A stretch of 8,062 nt of DNA, from positions 1 through 8,062 of the forward strand of contig JADHVS010000198.1 in NCBI GenBank assembly GCA_016783865.1. The letters are read 5' to 3'. Position 1 is the first letter of the stretch; each line of letters begins with the position of its first letter. Under the pieces are notes generated by a model that ran no database searches, had not been told where the DNA came from, and was given only the letters and a program-made list of their open reading frames with translations. Shown in pieces: positions 64 through 8,062 of the stretch. Source of the DNA: Bacteroidales bacterium (GTDB taxonomy: Bacteria > Bacteroidota > Bacteroidia > Bacteroidales > SM23-62). The position numbers and the translations under genes are program-made.

Positions 64-106
64 TGCGCTCGCTAACCCCGCAGCAAGCTACGGGGAATGC
101 GCTCGC
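64..106. repeat. REP-like hairpin flanked by 9-bp direct repeats
   Basis: The hairpin at 76-95 has arms CCCCGCAGC and GCTACGGGG around an AA loop, with one C/A mismatch. It is bracketed by the direct repeat TGCGCTCGC at 64-72 and 98-106. An ATG at 97 lies inside this repeat. This is one reason to start the next gene at 121 instead. Same family as the hairpin at 13-34. Confidence 0.55.
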
Positions 107-120
107 AGGATTCAAAAATT

Positions 121-528
121 ATGATCAGGTGGATAAAAGATAGCATTGGAATAAAAAACCTCCTTATACTGGTTACAGTTATTTTGGTAATTGCAGGTCT
201 TCTTGCTGGACCATCCCTTTATAAATCGATTAAACGGAATCAATACAAAGGTCATATTGAAGCAAGAGTTCTGAATATTGTGGACAAAAAAGCTTCATTT
301 CAACACTATAATGGAACAAATGTCAAAACTATTGGGTATGATATTTCCTATACATATTTTATAGATGGGGATAACTATACAAGAACTGAGTTTACAAAGT
401 CCGGTTCAGACGTGAAACTTTTATATGATAACTATTCTTCCGGGCAGAATTGCGAGGTTGTAGTAAAGTATTCTCTTGAGGCCCCTTCCGAAAGCTTTAT
501 TTCGAGTTTTACCAAAGAAGAGAACTAA
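121..528 (+). CDS. small membrane-anchored DUF3592-like protein
   Basis: Predicted 135-residue protein of unknown function. Residues about 13-34 form one hydrophobic segment, preceded by a basic N-terminus and followed by KSIKRNQYKG. The rest is probably an exported beta-rich domain. The pattern (an ARVLNIV strand, then YDISYTYFIDGDNYTR, then a late VVVKYSLEAPSES strand) resembles the DUF3592 family, where a V-x-Y-x-P-x-x-P-like stretch closes the domain. I chose ATG 121 because the upstream in-frame ATG at 97 lies in a repeat and would add eight non-hydrophobic residues ahead of the membrane segment. The stop abuts the decayed LysS-tail module at 530. No partner gene suggests a role. DUF3592 membership is an inference from the pattern; the reading frame itself looks real. 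Confidence 0.7.
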   Translation: MIRWIKDSIGIKNLLILVTVILVIAGLLAGPSLYKSIKRNQYKGHIEARVLNIVDKKASFQHYNGTNVKTIGYDISYTYFIDGDNYTRTEFTKSGSDVKLLYDNYSSGQNCEVVVKYSLEAPSESFISSFTKEEN

Positions 529-529
529 T

Positions 530-722
530 AAGTTTGTCGAATTAGGTGTCCCCAGGGAATATATAGAACCACTTAAGTCACTTTGATTTACTAATATCCC
601 TAAAATTAAGACAGTAGAGAAGCCCGGCAAGCTTGCAATGACCTGAATGGTTATAATAAAAAAATAAGCTTGGGCTGGCCGGGTTGAGTCCGGAGGCAGT
701 TGCTGAGTGGATTAAAGATTAG
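530..722 (+). pseudogene. decayed copy 1 of LysS C-terminal-extension-like module
   Basis: Translating from 530 gives KFVELGVPREYIEPLKSL, then a TGA at 584-586 where the other copies have Gly, then FTNIPKIKTVEKPGKL. A one-base loss at about 636 and another near 663 shift the frame. Reading through them gives NDLNGYNKK and LGLAGLSPEAVAEWIKD before TAG at 720-722. The order and residues match the intact modules at 2783-2995 and 4867-5121. The closest family I recognise is the roughly 70-residue extension at the end of Bacteroidota lysyl-tRNA synthetases. With a nonsense codon and two frameshifts it cannot make the domain. It is followed by a terminator. Confidence 0.75.
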
Positions 723-743
723 CAGATTAATATTTGATTACCT

Positions 744-773
744 AAGCCTCAATCATCCGATTGGGGCTTTTTT
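744..773 (+). terminator. rho-independent terminator
   Basis: Stem AGCCTCAATC (745-754) pairs with GATTGGGGCT (759-768) with one T-G wobble, around the loop ATCC, and is followed by a six-base T-run. It is the most convincing terminator in the window. It lies just downstream of LysS-tail copy 1 and ends transcription coming from the DUF3592-like gene or from the module. Confidence 0.85.
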
Positions 774-789
774 GTCACTTGATTGTCAC
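773..789. repeat. box A: TGTCAC-N5-TGTCAC
   Basis: Two TGTCAC hexamers start 11 bases apart, about one helical turn. The first overlaps the end of the terminator T-run. Similar pairs are at 3051-3067, 3170-3186, 4776-4792 and, degenerate, 6004-6019. The box lies 98 bases before the TPR gene start. It could be an operator for a protein binding two half-sites on one face, or part of a repeat unit. Confidence 0.5.
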
Positions 790-870
790 AGTGAAAATTG
801 ATTCCATAATATTATTGGAGTTTGGTAATATAACCAAGTTGGACTAAATTTATATATCCAAACCAAAACT
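790..870 (+). promoter_or_regulatory. leader/promoter region of the TPR gene
   Basis: This 80-base AT-rich leader carries an inverted repeat (TTGGT 822-826, ACCAA 833-837) and an overlapping CCAAGTTGG palindrome (834-842). The last part aligns with the region before the broken TPR paralogue at 6096: both have a GTTTG-TAAT stretch, then AGTTG, then ATATCCAAAC, then CTATG. That conservation marks it as the functional leader. I could not place -7 and -33 boxes with confidence. There is no Shine-Dalgarno; the start is preceded by an A/C-rich CCAAACCAAAACT. Confidence 0.45.
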
Positions 871-2793
871 ATGTCTGATAAATCCAACAATCCATTCCAA
901 TTCTGGGAGGAATTAAAGCGCAGGAAGGTTATCCGTGTTATTATTGGTTATGCAGCGGCGGCTTATTTGATTCTTGAGTTAGTGTCAATAATTGCTGAAC
1001 CATTAGGATTGCCAGGTTGGACTATAAACCTTGTTTTAGTACTACTTTGTGTGGGATTTATTATTGCAATCTTTCTTTCCTGGATTTTTGATTTCACGTC
1101 TGAAGGGATCAAAAAAACAGAATCAGCCAAGGTTGCTATGGCGAAGGAAGTACAGACTAAACCCGATAAAAGAAAATTGAAAGTTAGTGATATAGTAATT
1201 GCTGTGCTGGTTGTATTTGTTGTGATATTGGCTTACCCAAAGATATTCAATAATGATAGATTAGAGGGGATTCGAAATCCGGAAGGAAAGATTTCCATTG
1301 CAGTTATGCCTTTTGATAATCTATCTGGTGATTCCCTTTATAATGTTTGGCAGGGTGGTTTTCAGAATCTTCTTATTACAACTCTATCAAACTCCGAGGA
1401 GCTCCTAGTCCGACAGTATCAAACGATGTCTACTTTACTTGACAAGAAAAATGTTGCCACTTACGCTTCTCTCACGCCATCAATTGCCAGTGATCTCGCT
1501 TTAAGCCTTGAGACAAGGACATTTATACTTGGTAAAATACTGAAAGCCGGAAATAAGATCCGGGTAAACGCGCAACTGGTGAATTCTGAAACAGAAGAAA
1601 TATTTAAAACGTTCAAGGTAGAAGGATATACAGAGGATGATATATTTGTCATGGCCGACTCCTTGTCTGGTCTGATAAAGAACTATCTTGAAATTAAAAA
1701 ACTTGCTGAAAAGCATTCTTCATCTATTATTGGTAGCCCTTCTTTTACAAATTCTGCTGAGGCTTTTCAATATTATATTCACGGATGGGATTCTTTTATG
1801 GGATTAGACTTTCAAACAGCCACTGAATCACTTTCTAAAGCCATAGAAATAGATTCAAATTTTTTATCGGCATTTACAACCCTGTCATATGTTTATATGG
1901 TTAGTGGAAATGATAAACTAGCAAAGCACTGGTGTAATTTGGCTTATAAAAAGAGAGATGATTTCTCATTGAAAGGAAAACTATTAATAGACCAACTCAA
2001 CGCATATTATTTTGGGACCCCAAATGAAGAAATCAAATATCTTAGACAGATACTGGAAATTGATGAACTGAATTCTACTTATTGGTTCTTACTTGGCTTT
2101 GCATATTACCTAAAGCTTCAGAATTATGAAGATGCTGTAATTAATTTTGAAAAAGCCCTCGAAATAAATAAAAAATGGGGAACCAACTTTCGCAATCCCT
2201 GGATATATTGGTATTTGGGAGATTCGTACCATCAAGTTAATGAACATAAAAAAGAAAAAGAAATCTATAAATTGGGATTAAGCGTGTTTCCTCAGGAAAC
2301 ACGTATCATACAACAACAGGCCATTTGTGCTCTTTCACAAGGAGATACAGAGGCGGCGAATGATTTTATAGCGAAATACAAATCAATTAGTAAAAATAAA
2401 AACCAGTGGCCCGAGTCAAGAATACTTTCAGGGATAGGAACTATATATACTGAAGCAAATATAATTGCTAAAGCAGAAATTTGTTTTCGTCAAGCCCTTA
2501 CATTAGATCCCGTGAATCCCTCAAGAATACATGATCTGGCCTGGTTCCTGATAGATAATGATATTAATATAGATGAAGGAATGGACCTTGTTCAAAAAGC
2601 TTTGAAAGAAAGGCCTGATGACTGGTACTACTTAGACACCAAAGGATGGGGTCTATATAAACAAGGCAGGTATGAAGAATCACTAAAGGTTCTCAATGAC
2701 TCCTGGGAATTGAGACCTTTCTTTGACCATACCGGTTTTCTACATATCCAGGAAGTCGAAAAAGCTCTTGCCAAACAAGAGAGTGAGCAGTGA
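871..2793 (+). CDS. inner-membrane TolB/FlgO-like tetratricopeptide-repeat protein
   Basis: Predicted 640-residue membrane protein. Residues about 12-79 (FWEELKRRKVIRV, two membrane helices at about 20-41 and 51-73, then SWIFDFTSEGIKK) match the N-terminal module of proteins that precede a TolB/FlgO-like domain. A third helix spans about 106-123, so the C-terminal part should face the periplasm. Residues about 141-265 begin ISIAVMPFDNLSGD and include RTFILGKILKAGNKIRVNAQL, the usual signature of that domain. From about 290 to 635 there are TPR-type helical pairs, for example NYEDAVINFEKALEIN and RYEESLKVLNDSWELRP. No cyclase, kinase or DNA-binding domain is seen, so it is probably a scaffold or sensor rather than an enzyme. 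ATG 871 fits the A-rich leader. The TGA stop lies within the next module. A broken paralogue is at 6096-6276. Partners are unknown. Confidence 0.85.
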   Translation: MSDKSNNPFQFWEELKRRKVIRVIIGYAAAAYLILELVSIIAEPLGLPGWTINLVLVLLCVGFIIAIFLSWIFDFTSEGIKKTESAKVAMAKEVQTKPDKRKLKVSDIVIAVLVVFVVILAYPKIFNNDRLEGIRNPEGKISIAVMPFDNLSGDSLYNVWQGGFQNLLITTLSNSEELLVRQYQTMSTLLDKKNVATYASLTPSIASDLALSLETRTFILGKILKAGNKIRVNAQLVNSETEEIFKTFKVEGYTEDDIFVMADSLSGLIKNYLEIKKLAEKHSSSIIGSPSFTNSAEAFQYYIHGWDSFMGLDFQTATESLSKAIEIDSNFLSAFTTLSYVYMVSGNDKLAKHWCNLAYKKRDDFSLKGKLLIDQLNAYYFGTPNEEIKYLRQILEIDELNSTYWFLLGFAYYLKLQNYEDAVINFEKALEINKKWGTNFRNPWIYWYLGDSYHQVNEHKKEKEIYKLGLSVFPQETRIIQQQAICALSQGDTEAANDFIAKYKSISKNKNQWPESRILSGIGTIYTEANIIAKAEICFRQALTLDPVNPSRIHDLAWFLIDNDINIDEGMDLVQKALKERPDDWYYLDTKGWGLYKQGRYEESLKVLNDSWELRPFFDHTGFLHIQEVEKALAKQESEQ

Positions 2794-2995
2794 ACAGGAA
2801 TATTTGGATATTGGGGTGCCAAAAGAATGGGTACCGGTGTTGCAGAAGTTAGGGTATACTACCATTGAGAAACTTAAAGCAGTTGAAAAGCCGGGCAAGC
2901 TGCACCAGGAGATGATGGGACTCAGGAAGAAAAATAAACTTGAGATCGCAACGGTAAGTGCTGAGGATGTTACGAATTGGCTTAAAACTGAATAG
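2783..2995 (+). CDS. copy 2: stand-alone LysS C-terminal-extension-like module
   Basis: An intact 70-codon frame from GTG 2783 begins VSSEQEYLDIGVPKEW and ends SAEDVTNWLKTE. It resembles the helical C-terminal extension of Bacteroidota lysyl-tRNA synthetase (IGVPEEWVPxxQKxGY, KLHQD, NKKxKLEL, then VxxW), without the catalytic core. GTG 2783 overlaps the TPR stop (2791-2793), so translation could be coupled. An in-frame ATG at 2723 exists, but it would add 20 residues encoded wholly inside the TPR gene, whose own frame is clearly the coding one there. The C-terminal half (HQEMMGLRKKNKLEI) differs from copies 1 and 3. A terminator follows at 3026. Whether it is translated is unknown; it may be a relocated lysS 3' end. 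The domain assignment is from memory. Confidence 0.55.
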   Translation: MSSEQEYLDIGVPKEWVPVLQKLGYTTIEKLKAVEKPGKLHQEMMGLRKKNKLEIATVSAEDVTNWLKTE

Positions 2996-3025
2996 TCCAG
3001 TATATTAACTTTCGCAATATATGTA

Positions 3026-3051
3026 CCTGAGACAATTATCTCAGGATTTTT
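3026..3051 (+). terminator. rho-independent terminator
   Basis: CCTGAGA (3026-3032) pairs perfectly with TCTCAGG (3039-3045) around a six-base loop, followed by A and five T. It ends the TPR/LysS-tail copy 2 transcript. Its placement relative to the module, and the sequence right after it, parallel the terminator after copy 1. Confidence 0.75.
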
Positions 3052-3067
3052 ATCACCTGTTTGTCAC
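3051..3067. repeat. box B: TATCAC-N5-TGTCAC
   Basis: Hexamers TATCAC (3051-3056) and TGTCAC (3062-3067) are 11 bases apart. The surroundings also match box A: a T-run, the two hexamers, then TGAAAATT in both. This is therefore true homology downstream of LysS-tail copies 1 and 2, not a chance motif. Confidence 0.5.
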
Positions 3068-3425
3068 TGAAAATTTCCAATCTAGTGAGTCTTTCCCATA
3101 ATCACATCCTGGGCTTGTGCAAAAATACTGGTGGACTATGCTGATAAAAGGTGGCTTTGTGGTCTGTTTTGTCACGATTGTGTCACTTGCGGATTTATTG
3201 TTTAATGTAAACCATTAATTATAAACTAAACGCAAGGCAAGATCTCATTTATACCAGAAATGCGACGCACCACTCCACCTGTGAATCCATCTAACCATGA
3301 AACTTTTGGAGTAATCATTCTAATCATTCCCCTAAATACTTGACATTCTACCAATATCGTCTTAATTTAGTTTACGATTTTTACTTTTCTAAGCTATAAA
3401 CTCTTATTGTAATTAATTGAGTGCT
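3068..3425. other. non-coding stretch before the aldo/keto reductase gene
   Basis: I see no convincing gene on either strand. It contains box C (3170-3186), a tandem 2 x 9-base repeat TAATCATTC (3312-3329) and a promoter-like pair TTGACA (3340-3345) / TAATTT (3363-3368) with a 17-base spacer. The last would suit a generic housekeeping promoter. Bacteroidota promoters usually differ (a TAnnTTTG -7 box), so the promoter call is weak. The length suggests a displaced or decayed segment rather than a simple leader. Confidence 0.45.
3170..3186. repeat. box C: TGTCAC-N5-TGTCAC
   Basis: A second exact pair of TGTCAC hexamers 11 bases apart with spacer GATTG, preceded by CTGTTT. It lies about 120 bases after box B and about 240 bases before the aldo/keto reductase start. 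Confidence 0.5.
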
Positions 3426-4619
3426 ATGGGAAAAAACCCTATTTCCAGAAGAAACTTCATGAAATCTTCAGCAGCAGGTATGGCCGGAATGATTTGTCAG
3501 CCTTCAAAGAACATAGATCGTCATATTGGTCAAGAAACGAGAACTCTTGTATACCGCACTCTTGGAAAAACAAACATTAAAGTCCCAGTGATCGGAATGG
3601 GAATTCTGTCTTCTGGCAGCCCTGCTTTAATCAGGGCAGCACTTGACGCAGGGATTACTCACTTTGACTCTACTGCTGCTCTCCAACAGCAAGTGCGGAA
3701 TGAGGAAATGATAGGAAAGGTTATGAAAGATCGATCACGGGAATCATTCATCTATGGTACCAAAATCCATCTTCCGCAGGACTATCAAACGGGCCTGTAC
3801 AAAGAAACCGCGACCGAGGAGGAATTTACAAGAAAGCTTGATGAGGCGCTGCGAAATCTACAAATGGATTATGTGGACATCGTGTACCACCATATGGTTT
3901 CCCGTAAGGAGTCTGCCTTCCATGAACCTGTAATGAAAGCTATGGAAAAAGCTAAAAGCGCCGGAAAGGCGAGATTTTTGGGATTGACCACTCACAGCAA
4001 TGTTCCAGAGGCGATTCATGCTGCAGTAGATTCAAACTTTTATGAGATCGTTATGGCATCCTATAATCCCAGGCAAAAAAATCTAACAGAGGTTAAAAAT
4101 GCAATTGCAAGAGCGGCCGATGCAGGACTGGGAGTGGTCGCCATTAAAGTGATCAGGGGAGATGTAGAAAAAGGACAGGAACCGGTGAATCCCAAAGCCT
4201 CATTAAAATGGGTACTCCAGGATATGAATGTCCATGCGACAATCCCTGGCTTCGGTAGTTTTGAAGAAATGGAAATCGACCTTTCCGTAATGGAAGACCT
4301 AAGTTTGACTGTTGCTGAACTCAACGATTTAAAGAAAGACACTTCTTATTCGGGTTTGTTTTGCCAGGGATGTAACCAGTGTTTAAAGAACTGCAGCGCT
4401 GGACTTCCTATTCCTGACTTAATGCGGGCATATATGTACACATACGGCTACAAACAACCAGTTCTCGCTCACAATCTGCTCACCTCCCTGGAGCTGCCTC
4501 AAGAGGTTTGTAATGATTGTAATTCCTGCAAGGTTGAATGCCAAAATGGTTGGAAGGTTGATGAAAAAATTCTTGATATCATAAGACTAAAGGAAATACC
4601 GTTAGATTTTATTGTATGA
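3426..4619 (+). CDS. Tat-exported aldo/keto reductase-like protein with two CxxCxxCxxxC clusters
   Basis: Predicted 397-residue protein from ATG 3426; a TTG at 3417 would only add MSA. Residues 6-24 form a twin-arginine signal (ISRRNFMK, then SSAAGMAGM), implying folded export. Residues about 41-300 follow the aldo/keto reductase barrel: YRTLGKTNIKVPVIGMG, AALDAGITHFDS, MDYVDIVYHH, GKARFLGLTTHS. Of the family's Asp-Tyr-Lys-His tetrad, D81, K113 and H155/H156 are present, but no Tyr lies in the segment after D81 (STAALQQQ). Near the C-terminus, C313-C316-C319-C323 and C362-C365-C368-C372 each give CxxCxxCxxxC, typical of [4Fe-4S] binding. An electron-transfer oxidoreductase in the envelope is plausible; the substrate is unknown. 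It is a single gene with no operon partner, and no good terminator is seen after it. Confidence 0.85.
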   Translation: MGKNPISRRNFMKSSAAGMAGMICQPSKNIDRHIGQETRTLVYRTLGKTNIKVPVIGMGILSSGSPALIRAALDAGITHFDSTAALQQQVRNEEMIGKVMKDRSRESFIYGTKIHLPQDYQTGLYKETATEEEFTRKLDEALRNLQMDYVDIVYHHMVSRKESAFHEPVMKAMEKAKSAGKARFLGLTTHSNVPEAIHAAVDSNFYEIVMASYNPRQKNLTEVKNAIARAADAGLGVVAIKVIRGDVEKGQEPVNPKASLKWVLQDMNVHATIPGFGSFEEMEIDLSVMEDLSLTVAELNDLKKDTSYSGLFCQGCNQCLKNCSAGLPIPDLMRAYMYTYGYKQPVLAHNLLTSLELPQEVCNDCNSCKVECQNGWKVDEKILDIIRLKEIPLDFIV

Positions 4620-4723
4620 ATTTTTTCTGAATGATCCCTCAACCATATTTCTGGCATACTCTCTCCATCACCTCTTGCCCAATTTCCTTTGAATGATTAT
4701 CAATATTCTCCCAAGCGGGAAAT

Positions 4724-4746
4724 GGGGTGTTAGCTCAGTTGGTTCA
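4724..4746 (+). pseudogene. tRNA 5'-half fragment
   Basis: GGGGTGT, then TA, then GCTCAGTTGGTTC reproduce the acceptor 5' strand, positions 8-9 and the D arm of a tRNA, a common Bacteroidota D-loop form. The expected GAGC closing the D stem is absent (AGTCC follows), and I find no anticodon arm, T arm or acceptor 3' strand. It is therefore a broken tRNA gene rather than a functional one; identity cannot be assigned. Confidence 0.4.
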
Positions 4747-4775
4747 GTCCGCCAACTGGCAGATGACAGGCATGA

Positions 4776-4792
4776 TGTCACAAATTTGTCCC
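4776..4792. repeat. box D: TGTCAC-N5-TGTCCC
   Basis: TGTCAC (4776-4781) and TGTCCC (4787-4792) start 11 bases apart, one base off the exact box form. Unlike boxes A and B it lies upstream of a LysS-tail module (copy 3), about 100 bases before its frame. Confidence 0.35.
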
Positions 4793-4866
4793 TGACCTCA
4801 ACCCGAAACTAACTAATCCCCTCCTACCTATCAATATTCCCATCCCAACTCGGTTGTTTCCCGCAA

Positions 4867-5121
4867 ATGAGATTAATCGGTGATCAGGGATCGGTGAGCG
4901 GTGAACAGGAATACATCGATATTGGTGTTCCGAAAGAGTGGGTGCCGGTGTTGCAGAAGTTAGGTTATACTACGATTGAAAAGTTAAAGGCAGTTGAAAA
5001 ACCGGGCAAACTTGCCAACGACCTGAATGGGTATAATAAAAAGAATAAACTCGGGTTAGCGGGTTTGAGTCCGGAAGTTGTTGGTAAGTGGATTTTGTTC
5101 TCAGGAAGCTCAGGAACCTGA
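4867..5121 (+). CDS. copy 3: stand-alone LysS C-terminal-extension-like module
   Basis: Open frame of 84 codons from ATG 4867. Homology to copy 2 starts at the GTG at 4894 (VSGEQEYIDIGVPKEW) and ends near W-I at 5089-5094; the last nine residues (LFSGSSGT region) are unrelated and probably read-out after the module's own 3' end was lost. From Asp 4918 to Leu 5013 its 32 residues are identical to copy 2. The second half (ANDLNGYNKKNKLGLAGLSP) follows copy 1 instead. It resembles the C-terminal extension of Bacteroidota lysyl-tRNA synthetase without the synthetase. The frame is intact and could be translated, but no clear promoter is seen. It may be a relocated lysS 3' end. It is convergent with the hydrolase at 5153. 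Confidence 0.5.
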   Translation: MRLIGDQGSVSGEQEYIDIGVPKEWVPVLQKLGYTTIEKLKAVEKPGKLANDLNGYNKKNKLGLAGLSPEVVGKWILFSGSSGT

Positions 5122-5152: not shown

Positions 5153-5977
5153 TCATTCATAACTTGCATAAATCTGCCCAATCCAGCTTTCTTTTGTAAT
5201 AAACGGAAAGAATTTGCCCCATTGTTCAAAATCCGTTAATACGTCAGATTCCTTAATTTCCTGTAAGTTTTTCCCGGCATTCATTTCAGCCCTCACAAGA
5301 TCTATAGTGATTTTAAGCATGCTGATGTAATCTTTCAGGTCGGACATATTTGTTTCTTTCCCATGTCCGGAAAACAACCTGGTGTCTTGCGGTAACATTC
5401 TCAGTATCGCTTCAAGGTTTTTAACTACTGTTTGAGCTTTTGAGCCTAGTCCAATGATTACCAGAGGGAAAGATTCTGATAAATACAGATCCCCCAAATA
5501 GGCTATCTTAAGGTCAGGGACATAAACAATGATATCACATTGAGAATGCCCACCTGGAAAGGGAATGCAGATTACCTTATTCCCTGAGAAATCAAATGTA
5601 TATTCTTCATCAATAGTAATAATTTCAAATCCTTCTGATGTAAGCTCATCTTTGCACTCCAGATGACCTATTATTTTTAATCCTTTGCCAAAGGCTTTAT
5701 TTCCACCAGTATGATCTCCATGAAGATGTGAATTAATTATAATGCTGACATCCTTACCAATGAATTGAACGGCATCCACAAGATCATCAGCTGCATCCTT
5801 GAATCCTGTATCAAACAGGAGTATTCCATTTTCACCTGTAATGGCTAATATATTGACTGTGAATCGCGTAGTTTCTTTTAAGAGAAACAGGTTTTCATCA
5901 AGTTTCGTGATTTCAACATTATCATTTGTGAATATCGCCTGGCCGGATTGATTTCCTTTGCTGAATGTGTTGTTCTT
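5153..5977 (-). CDS. metallo-beta-lactamase-fold hydrolase lacking a usable start codon
   Basis: From GTG 5779 the frame gives 208 residues with a full zinc set: SHLHGDHTGG (H18, H20, D22, H23), GGHSQCD (H78), YLGDLYL (D97) and FSGHGKE (H139). That is the HxHxDH type shared by glyoxalase II-like hydrolases and subclass B3 enzymes. The substrate is unknown. The frame stays open 66 codons further upstream, to 5977, and those residues are clearly the missing first strands of the fold (ENLFLLKETTRFTVNILA, then GILLFDTGF). No ATG, GTG or TTG lies in that part. An ATG at 5983-5981 is followed at once by TGA (5980-5978). So the gene is 5'-truncated, has a nonsense second codon, or uses an unusual start. 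No signal peptide is seen. Function as drawn is uncertain. Confidence 0.75.
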   Translation of the reverse strand, partial: KNNTFSKGNQSGQAIFTNDNVEITKLDENLFLLKETTRFTVNILAITGENGILLFDTGFKDAADDLVDAVQFIGKDVSIIINSHLHGDHTGGNKAFGKGLKIIGHLECKDELTSEGFEIITIDEEYTFDFSGNKVICIPFPGGHSQCDIIVYVPDLKIAYLGDLYLSESFPLVIIGLGSKAQTVVKNLEAILRMLPQDTRLFSGHGKETNMSDLKDYISMLKITIDLVRAEMNAGKNLQEIKESDVLTDFEQWGKFFPFITKESWIGQIYASYE

Positions 5978-6003: not shown

Positions 6004-6095
6004 TTTCACTATTTGTCTATAACAAATTCTATTTCATCCTTATGACTTGTGTTTGATAATTAGTTGATATATATTTAAATATCCAAACTCAACCT
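6004..6095 (+). promoter_or_regulatory. duplicate of the TPR gene leader with degenerate box
   Basis: TTTCAC (6004-6009) and TGTCTA (6014-6019) form a degenerate version of the TGTCAC box, here with a 10-base period. Further on, GTTTGATAAT, TAGTTG and ATATCCAAAC then CCTATG match the leader of the TPR gene at 871 in the same order and at nearly the same distance from the ATG. It might still drive transcription into the GH9 gene. Confidence 0.45.
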
Positions 6096-6276
6096 ATGCC
6101 TGAAAAAATCAGTGATCCTAGAATTGGTATCTATCATTTCAGATCCGTTTGGATTGCCTGTCTGGACATTGAAGCTTGTTGTTATCCTGCTTTGCATTGA
6201 TTTAATTATTACAATTATTCTTTTATGGATCTATGCTATCACACCGGAAGTTGTTCAAAGATCCTCAGGAAGTTAA
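6096..6276 (+). pseudogene. truncated N-terminal remnant of a TPR-gene paralogue
   Basis: ATG 6096 encodes MPEKISDP, matching MSDKSNNP of the TPR protein at 871. An internal deletion equal to residues 9-35 of that protein then shifts the frame. From 6121 the reading resumes in another frame as ELVSIISDPFGLPVW and a membrane helix ending WIYAITPE, matching residues 36-78 of the intact protein. It ends at TAA 6274-6276 with no TolB-like or TPR part. It is a non-functional duplicate. Its remaining helix could in principle be made, but the frameshift argues against it. Confidence 0.75.
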
Positions 6277-6297
6277 ATTTAAAAACTAAACCATATG

Positions 6298-8062
6298 ATG
6301 AAACCATTTAAAAGTTCCTTATTGATGGTAATGCTGTTTGGCCTGTCACTCATAACATATTCACAGACCGGAGTGATCAGGATCAATCAGATGGGTTATT
6401 ACCCTGATGCCAATAAATTTGCTGTAGTGGTCTATAGCGATGTAAACAATTTTGAGGTTGTAAATACGGCAGACAGCACCGTTGTATTTACAGGAAATAT
6501 GACTCCCCGGATGTACTGGCCAGATGCGGGCGACAGCATAAAACTCTGCGATTTTTCCGGGCTTACCCAAACAGGGATCTATAAAATCCATATTCCCGGG
6601 TTCGGGGAATCCTATCCTTTTGAAATTTCAGATACCGTATGGCGCAAGGCAGCTTACGCTTCATTAAAATCATTCTATTACCAGCGTTGTTCATATGAGC
6701 TTGAAGAAGATTACGCGGGATTATGGGCCAGGGCTGCAGGACATCCTGATACGGCATGTTTTTTTTATTCTTCAACAGGAAAGACCGGGAAAATATCATC
6801 ACCGGGAGGCTGGTACGATGCCGGTGACTTCGGGAAATATGTGATCAATGCAGGTATTTCAGTTGCTACCATGCTCTCCTTCCATGAGAATTTTAAAGAT
6901 TTTTTCGCTGACAGCACCATTCATATTCCTGAATCGGGCAATGGAAAAAACGATCTGCTGGATGAGGTAAAATTTGAGTTGGACTGGCTGAAGACCATGC
7001 AGGATGAAGATGGGGGTGTATTTGTCAAATTGACCACCCTGTGGTTCGTGGGATTCATCATGCCTTCTGCAGCCACGGCGGATCGATATGTAATCGGGAA
7101 ATCAACGGCCTCGGCACTTGATTTTGCGGCCATGATGGCCATGGCCGGCAGGATCTACAAGGACTATGATTCTGCATATGCAGCCGACTGTATCATGCGT
7201 GCAACAGAGGCCTGGAAATGGGCAAAGGCAAATCCGGCGATATATTTTAAGAATCCTTCGGATGTTTCAACCGGCGAATATGGCGATGGAAATGTTTCCG
7301 ATGAATTTATATGGGCTGCAGCCGAGCTCTATATAACCACTGATAGTTCTGAATATAAAACCTTCCTGGAAGGAAAGAGCAGTTCATTAAAATATCAATA
7401 TGCCCCCGGATGGCCAAATGTGCAGCCACTTGCATCCCTTTCACTGGCAACCCGGACAAACGGTTTGTCTGAAGCCCTTGTTACAACCATAAAGAATTCG
7501 GTTATTTCAACTGCCGACAACTGGCTGAACCAGATATCCTCAAGCCCATGCCGGATACCCCAGTTTGGATACTGGTGGGGATCGAACAGCGGGATTGCAA
7601 ACATGGGTGTCGGATTGCTATATGCATATATCATCACAAATGATGAAAAATACATCAAAGGAGCTGCCGAATGTGCCGATTATCTCCTGGGGAAAAATGC
7701 AACGGGTTATTCCTTTGTGTCTTCATATGGCTACAAAACCCCGGTAAATTTTCATCACCGGGCTTCGGGCTCCGATGGGATAACCCAGCCGGTTCCGGGC
7801 TTTGTGGCAGGCGGGCCAAATAAAGACAAGCAGGACGGTGAGAAGTATCCATTCATCAATCCTGCTAAATCCTATACTGATGTAACAGGCAGCTATGCAT
7901 CGAACGAGGTCTGCATTAACTGGAATTCACCACTTACAGCATTACTGGCCGGTGTGGATGCCGTTCTGGGTGACAGCTCGGAAGTTGATTTTGAAGTACA
8001 AACCAGTGCAAATAATCCTCCGGTCATTAAACTTATTTCTCCGACTTACGGTTTTAATGCTG
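6298..8062 (+). CDS. secreted family 9 glycoside hydrolase (endoglucanase-like), 3' incomplete
   Basis: 588 codons are visible and the gene runs past the window end. Residues 1-23 are a signal peptide (KPFKSSLLMVMLFGLSL, cleavage near TYSQ). Residues about 25-110 (VIRINQMGYYPDANKFAVV) form the N-terminal Ig-like domain found before many GH9 catalytic modules. The catalytic domain follows: GGWYDAGDFGKYV with D174 and D177 as the expected base pair of aspartates, KLTTLWFVGFIMP, the NFHHRASG substrate motif (H486, H487, R488), and SYASNEVCINW with E537 as the expected acid. All key GH9 residues are present, so activity on cellulose or a related beta-1,4-glucan is likely. After about residue 575 a new domain begins (NNPPVIKLISP), typical of an Ig-like repeat. 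Either ATG 6295 or 6298 could start it; the leader is A-rich. Confidence 0.92.
   Translation, partial: MKPFKSSLLMVMLFGLSLITYSQTGVIRINQMGYYPDANKFAVVVYSDVNNFEVVNTADSTVVFTGNMTPRMYWPDAGDSIKLCDFSGLTQTGIYKIHIPGFGESYPFEISDTVWRKAAYASLKSFYYQRCSYELEEDYAGLWARAAGHPDTACFFYSSTGKTGKISSPGGWYDAGDFGKYVINAGISVATMLSFHENFKDFFADSTIHIPESGNGKNDLLDEVKFELDWLKTMQDEDGGVFVKLTTLWFVGFIMPSAATADRYVIGKSTASALDFAAMMAMAGRIYKDYDSAYAADCIMRATEAWKWAKANPAIYFKNPSDVSTGEYGDGNVSDEFIWAAAELYITTDSSEYKTFLEGKSSSLKYQYAPGWPNVQPLASLSLATRTNGLSEALVTTIKNSVISTADNWLNQISSSPCRIPQFGYWWGSNSGIANMGVGLLYAYIITNDEKYIKGAAECADYLLGKNATGYSFVSSYGYKTPVNFHHRASGSDGITQPVPGFVAGGPNKDKQDGEKYPFINPAKSYTDVTGSYASNEVCINWNSPLTALLAGVDAVLGDSSEVDFEVQTSANNPPVIKLISPTYGFNA

Follow-up and report, generated by a model that had tools for sequence, protein, structure and literature searches.

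A stretch of 8,062 nucleotides from a Bacteroidales bacterium (contig JADHVS010000198.1; the window from here on) carries three copies of the C-terminal tail of lysyl-tRNA synthetase (LysS). Together with their counterparts in related genomes, these copies very probably mark the FFPQM codons of lysS as the attachment site of small integrative Bacteroidales elements, an integration hot spot at which displaced tails come to lie between inserts. An essential enzyme seems to have had one of its domains replaced by the elements, the old tails staying behind as scars. A hot spot of this kind was one of the models put forward in an earlier, sequence-only reading of the window, and it fits what comparison of genomes brings out: tails downstream of lysS, a constant breakpoint, flanking arm sites, the native synteny of a tRNA-Thr gene, a lysS-linked integrase clade, and tail types scrambled over the LysS tree. 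The analysis is wholly comparative, and many of the genomes are fragmented assemblies.

Displaced LysS tails in the window and downstream of lysS

The three copies lie on one strand, with unrelated genes between them (A, 515-716; B, 2783-2995; C, 4858-5094). Profile matches were obtained at 515-664 and 657-716 for A, which is broken, at 2759-2986 for B, and at 4858-5094 for C, and local DNA alignment scores were 109 (A/C), 160 (B/C), and 41 (A/B), against maxima of 34, 27, and 37, respectively, in 300 shuffles. As the A/B score is barely above chance, copy A rests on its match to C (82.5% DNA identity in the second half of A) and on the protein profile. Copy B is a mosaic, with 87.7% identity to C over the first half of its length but 61.0% over the second. 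Copy C, modelled with AlphaFold, is all-helical and resembles a tandem helix-hairpin-helix (HhH) domain (predicted local distance difference test score, pLDDT, 81), and comparison of the modelled structure finds a weak resemblance to the HhH domains of RadA/Rad51 and NusA. The tail protein of the window itself is P0001.

The sequence-only reading had located three modules here, and the profile matches and the scores above those of shuffles agree with it. It had also named the genes ahead of them: a TPR gene and an aldo/keto reductase gene are indeed present, while the DUF3592 match of the third reaches only 15.8 bits, below the Pfam cut-off of 25.3. Its identification of the domain as the C-terminal extension of LysS proved correct, as 71 of the 80 genomic matches kept (of 438) are inside a lysS reading frame longer than 400 codons; a further eight are in a lysS truncated at a contig end or gap, and one (L012) stands alone. 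Neither a synthetase core nor an integrase was found within the window, both as had been read; for the integrase this holds for the window, and the same contig probably carries, beyond it, an integrase fragment (P0163) along with a fourth tail (P0002).

The run of tails next to a true lysS that the same reading had suggested looking for is seen in related genomes. Past the true lysS, 2-5 kb downstream and in the same orientation, extra tails or tail fragments are found in L004, L007, and L019, and another contig of the L019 genome (L012) has two displaced tails, with lysS not in view. A displaced tail marks the distal end in all of these loci, as well as in L113, L118, and the window. Among the displaced copies in the loci read, 15 of 21 are fragments or broken, and six match 75 or more of the 89 profile positions without interruption. 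Extra copies are present in four (G004, G006, G007, and G012) of the 39 genomes reached via the first 40 loci.

One case of native synteny is presented by L019. In G042, whose lysS is without an arm site, lysS is followed by a small open reading frame (ORF) and then, approximately 225 bp past lysS, by tRNA-Thr(CGT), and in L019 the same tRNA gene is located 9 bp past the displaced tail. This displaced tail groups with the LysS tail of G042, on a long G042 branch, and not with its own LysS (Shimodaira-Hasegawa-like approximate likelihood ratio test, SH-aLRT, 83). The simplest reading of these sequences is that the native lysS 3' end was pushed off and another installed. As the tRNA gene of L019 sits between the displaced tail and an arm site, host DNA may be captured in a unit. 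tRNA-Thr(CGT) adjoins the lysS 3' end both in L019 (6889-6960) and in L226 (2553-2627).

A constant breakpoint and recurrent unit ends

Displaced copies that retain their 5' end start at or slightly before the codons FFPQM, a position roughly 70 or more codons ahead of the lysS stop (approximately 75-85 in most LysS read). Among the 120 stand-alone homologues listed, a few of which are plainly cut lysS genes, 88 have a start consistent with the Met of PQM and 17 further ones hold an FPQM-like stretch. About 12 bp, TTCCCGCARATG, are common to lysS and the displaced copies, as a candidate att repeat. A terminator hairpin with TTGTCACnnnnTTGTCAC behind it often follows the stop codon of lysS or of a displaced tail, and hairpin-plus-arm blocks resembling positions 744-789 of the window follow lysS or displaced tails in L019, L012, and L111. 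Direct repeats of the TTGTCACnnnnTTGTCAC type are thus placed after the new tail and ahead of the old one, and those displaced tails that retain the right end are preceded by a TTGTCACAAGTTTGTCCC-type site, separated from TTCCCG by a nearly fixed distance (65 bases in the window, 66 in L012, 65 in L118, and 66 in L113).

The window has four TTGTCACnnnnTTGTCAC-like sites (at 772, 3050, 3169, and 4775), all on the plus strand with at most two mismatches, where 0.04 would be expected, and none of 200 shuffles reaches four. The exact arm pattern occurs in three of 20 genomes, at six sites, every one after lysS or a displaced tail, with no match to the reversed control. A site with at most three mismatches is present within 120 bp of the lysS stop in eight of 14 genomes, compared to 20 of 2800 shuffles and none of the 14 stretches further on that served as controls, the pattern having been drawn in part from three of those 14 genomes (G004, G012, and G041). 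A complete LysS reading frame including its tail, followed by an arm site, is found in G004, G012, G041, G051, G054, G055, G057, and G060. Units of approximately 0.9-2.4 kb from arm to arm, with one or two genes, different cargo, and similar ends, are present in L001, L004, L012, and the window. Two arm-like sites of G054 enclose a longer stretch, 5.8 kb, and the second is not followed by any visible tail. The features of the window are as follows.

97-528, plus strand: cargo gene, probably of the leftmost visible unit, for a weakly DUF3592-like membrane protein (ORF; DUF3592 match as above)
515-716, plus strand: displaced LysS tail A, broken by a stop and frameshifts (profile match)
744-769, plus strand: intrinsic terminator after tail A, AAGCCTCAATCATCCGATTGGGGCTT and a T run
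772-789, plus strand: left-end arm site TTGTCACTTGATTGTCAC, exact (pattern search)
871-2793, plus strand: cargo gene with an N-terminal membrane segment and TPR repeats (Pfam TPR)
2783-2995, plus strand: displaced LysS tail B, overlapping the end of the TPR gene; its right end (arm, core, and first codons) is not present
3026-3045, plus strand: intrinsic terminator after tail B
3050-3067, plus strand: left-end arm site TTATCACCTGTTTGTCAC, one mismatch
3169-3186, plus strand: second arm-like site TTGTCACGATTGTGTCAC, one mismatch, without an adjoining tail, perhaps the remnant of a deleted unit
3417-4619, plus strand: cargo gene for an aldo/keto reductase (Aldo_ket_red, E 9.9e-26) with a possible twin-arginine translocation (TAT) signal and a 4Fe-4S C-terminus (TAT_signal and Fer4_9 matches slightly under the Pfam cut-offs)
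4775-4792, plus strand: right-end arm site ATGTCACAAATTTGTCCC, two mismatches, 65 bases ahead of the core TTCCCG
4855-4869, plus strand: attR-like core TGTTTCCCGCAAATG, matching lysS CTTCTTCCCGCARATG (codons FFPQM)
4858-5094, plus strand: displaced LysS tail C, with an intact tail ORF at 4867-5121 (ORF and profile match)
6062-6118, plus strand: 74% repeat of 837-893 (family D3), evidently the 5' part of a second TPR-type unit, the remainder of which has decayed

Just ahead of the right arm, positions 4725-4760 (GTGTTAGCTCAGTTGGTTCAG) resemble the 5' half of a tRNA, with no tRNA called by ARAGORN. At the left, positions 14-98 include a 23-base repeat pair, CCTCGCAGCAAGCTGCGAGGAAT and CCCCGCAGCAAGCTACGGGGAAT, 87% alike and hairpin-like. 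To the right of the array, a metallo-beta-lactamase-fold protein (5153-5779, minus strand) and a GH9-family glycosidase (6295-8061, plus strand) are encoded.

Cargo found outside the window includes a glycosyltransferase, HipBA (assigned by eye in L115 and L116), ORF6N, FISUMP, Abi_2, HigB with a helix-turn-helix (HTH) partner, and DUF6528. The TPR protein of the window is 66.7% identical to the product of a gene in the first unit after lysS in L019 and 60.3% identical to one in L012, and FISUMP proteins of G051, whose LysS has a winged-helix tail, and of L012 are 64-77% identical, and thus similar cargo is found behind different tails in different genomes.

Apparent exchange of the LysS tail

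The family of G004 is represented by 28 genomes, 19 of which have a LysS core match and 16 both the core and a readable tail type. After FFPQM, six of these 16 carry the HhH tail and ten a winged-helix tail with the same starting point; the latter takes a winged-helix fold in a structural model (pLDDT 79; best Foldseek E 2.3e-3) and has no evident homology to the HhH tail downstream of FFPQM. On the tree of LysS cores, seven inner branches of which are open, tail type requires six changes, at least four of them forced by starred branches, compared to a mean of 5.0-5.2 for shuffled types, and so tail type is not clustered at all. G004 (HhH) and G049 (winged helix) are sisters (support 99/99). 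Two genomes with a winged-helix LysS also hold HhH sequence elsewhere: G041 has an HhH remnant just downstream on the same contig, and the HhH sequence of G060 consists of three weak fragments on a different contig.

The linker after FFPQM (for example in L182, L179, and L118) is made of short near-tandem repeats of varying sequence, such as SRQSPVASRQSPVA, GDGETGRRGDKETGGPGD, and SEQSTVSSEQ. Directly after lysS in G042 (L171) is a 58-residue ORF with weak HTH matches, which could be related to the winged-helix tail that is fused to LysS elsewhere.

An integrase clade linked to lysS

Tyrosine integrases of one clade, which possess an arm-binding domain, are linked to the lysS site by their position in several genomes. 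The integrase remnant in L113 (G061), possessing arm-binding and SAM-like integrase domains, matched five of the 28 genomes of the G004 family, its own included, and the family of G001 (117 genomes) yielded two more remnants of the clade, one in G001 itself and one in G007, where it lies amid tail fragments on the contig that carries lysS. The close clade so defined comprises seven loci at 60% identity or above, one of them that of the query (G061). In five of the seven (G055, G060, G062, G063, and G007) BLAST finds a lysS core or tail within 1.5 kb on either side; in G061 a displaced tail is 2.5 kb from the remnant, and in G001 tail-like codons, recognized by eye, follow it directly. Among 36 loci with more distant integrases (28-43% identity), none has a lysS core or either tail nearby. 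The remnants are short (only about 41-55 residues in four of the seven). P0163, the fragment probably located on the contig of the window, is 80% identical to that of G060. The full domain set (PF00589, SAM-like, and arm domains) is found in P0122 (360 residues), whose best match in 393 genomes of the order is only 43% identical, and therefore the clade is rare.

A model of insertion at lysS

The recombination chemistry, mobilization in trans, and the order of events in the window we infer, as follows. The attachment site would be the FFPQM codons of lysS. An element would carry a complete replacement lysS 3' end (tail, stop, terminator, and left arm site), then its cargo, the right arm site, and the core TGTTTCCCGCAAATG at a distance of 65-66 bases from that site. 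This core would be recombined with lysS by a tyrosine integrase that has an arm-binding domain; the element's tail would then become the new C-terminus of LysS and the old tail would be moved to the far end. As the tails brought in differ between elements (two HhH subtypes or the winged helix), insertion would swap the LysS domain, and repeated events would build an array of lysS, cargo, old tail, cargo, and older tail. Most units, including all of those in the window, are without an integrase, and these would be either mobilized in trans or products of deletion.

A number of observations weigh against this model. As to the arm sites, the exact pattern is present at 30 sites in 16 of the 393 genomes of the order (reversed control, 5), and just one of the 30 sites (in G004) adjoins lysS or a tail; a slightly looser pattern, applied to the G001 family (117 genomes), has four sites, fewer than the eight of the reversed control and all away from lysS and tails. 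With such matches away from lysS, the motif alone proves nothing, and placement is what counts. An arm with at most two mismatches lies within 400 bp past the lysS tail only in L001, L004, and L019 out of 80 loci, and several of the window copies are without arm or core on one side. The array of G004 includes glnA, encoding glutamine synthetase (L004, 12819-14321), which is a neighbour of lysS in G042 and G041. As to the integrase, no intact gene was seen beside lysS, the linked copies being truncated or frameshifted; relatives of 355-362 residues are known only as proteins, with genomic context absent; and most genomes with a lysS array yielded no integrase remnant. Neither recombination nor a circle nor an intact autonomous element was observed at lysS.

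The exact TTGTCACnnnnTTGTCAC sites away from lysS (29 of the 30; L121, L122, and L124-L150) include seven in G265, four in G515, and three each in G378 and G326, and perhaps belong to other elements with similar arms.

Alternative explanations

The decayed integrase remnants could also come from one ordinary prophage or conjugative element, of which the lysS loci would be degenerate remnants and the small units no cassettes at all. Such an origin would agree with the presence among the cargo of ORF6N, a domain of the phage-regulator type, and of Abi_2, with the one arm-to-arm stretch of 5.8 kb in G054, and with the use of lysS as a site of integrative and conjugative elements (ICEs) in Streptococcus. 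It is nevertheless unlikely, as the scanned proteins, none of them from a complete autonomous element, include no structural phage or conjugation gene, the tail was not found in IMG/VR or among phage records, nor two exact arm patterns in IMG/VR, and the units of one or two genes recur with different cargo and similar ends.

As to homologous recombination, or natural uptake of lysS 3' fragments, as the source of the tail copies and swaps, with no site-specific recombinase involved and with the intervening genes being ordinary insertions, it would explain the mosaic tail B, with its switch in mid-domain, well, and the HhH tails share sufficient identity for it. It leaves unexplained the constant 5' boundary at FFPQM, the fixed distance between arm and core, and the presence of the integrase clade at lysS, and the HhH and winged-helix tails offer it no evident homology past FFPQM; we consider it improbable.

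Homologues number 387 in the protein database, and intact stand-alone ORFs are common in metagenomes. Among the 120 homologues listed, 91 are 77-81 residues long, in a search that returns solely proteins of 0.55-1.75 times the query length. That the modules are functional small nucleic-acid-binding proteins derived from LysS and retained for their own sake, as the sequence-only reading had also proposed, may gain from these numbers and from the weakly HhH-like fold, but it is the least credible explanation and very improbable, given that 15 of the 21 displaced copies, like copy A, are fragmentary or broken, that the start codon is simply the Met of PQM, and that the copies sit behind unrelated genes.

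Relation to known systems

If insertion at lysS proceeds as modelled, it has precedents. In genomic islands found by the Islander principle, a tRNA or transfer-messenger RNA (tmRNA) gene is split on insertion and made whole again by the island, whose far end is recognizable by the displaced fragment (PMC4383910). The lysS elements would follow the same rule of restoring and displacing. Unlike such islands, they would target a protein gene, would restore a whole C-terminal domain that may be non-homologous to the one displaced, and mostly exist as units without an integrase, arranged in arrays. Some Streptococcus ICEs use a tyrosine integrase and the lysS 3' end, and S. suis is described as accumulating ICEs in tandem at other sites. 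The lysS ICEs have as repeats either the final 17 bp of the gene or 13 bp lying a little further in, and the protein is hardly altered (PMC4701971, PMC7168690). The integrase type and the target gene are thus shared with the Bacteroidales elements, whereas the junction in Bacteroidales is approximately 70 or more codons ahead of the stop and not in the last bases of lysS, and the Streptococcus elements are conjugative and belong to another phylum.

Two further systems are comparable in design. Staphylococcal cassette chromosome (SCC) elements insert serially at the end of rlmH, form arrays, and include units without a recombinase; their recombinases are serine recombinases, and they are not known to alter a domain of the target protein. 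The lysS units would likewise insert serially in one housekeeping gene end, form arrays, and include units without a recombinase, but the recombinase linked to lysS is a tyrosine integrase, and a domain of the target protein appears to be altered. Integrons and chromosomal cassette arrays collect single-gene units, including toxin-antitoxin and other accessory genes, by means of a tyrosine recombinase. Arrays of single-gene units and a tyrosine recombinase are common to the lysS loci as well, the difference being that the presumed recombination site at lysS is coding DNA of an essential gene, accompanied by arm-type direct repeats.

Overall, Streptococcus ICEs are described as inserting with no change, or almost none, to the target product (PMC4701971). 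In these Bacteroidales a housekeeping aminoacyl-tRNA synthetase has seemingly lost its entire C-terminal domain to an unrelated replacement on at least four occasions within 16 genomes of one family. A tentative and rather doubtful extension is that lysS serves as a recombination platform whose array archives alternative C-termini, gain and loss of cassettes by the integrase switching between HhH and winged-helix tails, perhaps reversibly and perhaps affecting tRNA binding or the fitness of the elements. The lysS loci offer a way to test if a core translation enzyme can be rewritten by mobile DNA, and they would place a cassette-array design beside that of integrons, in environmental Bacteroidota.

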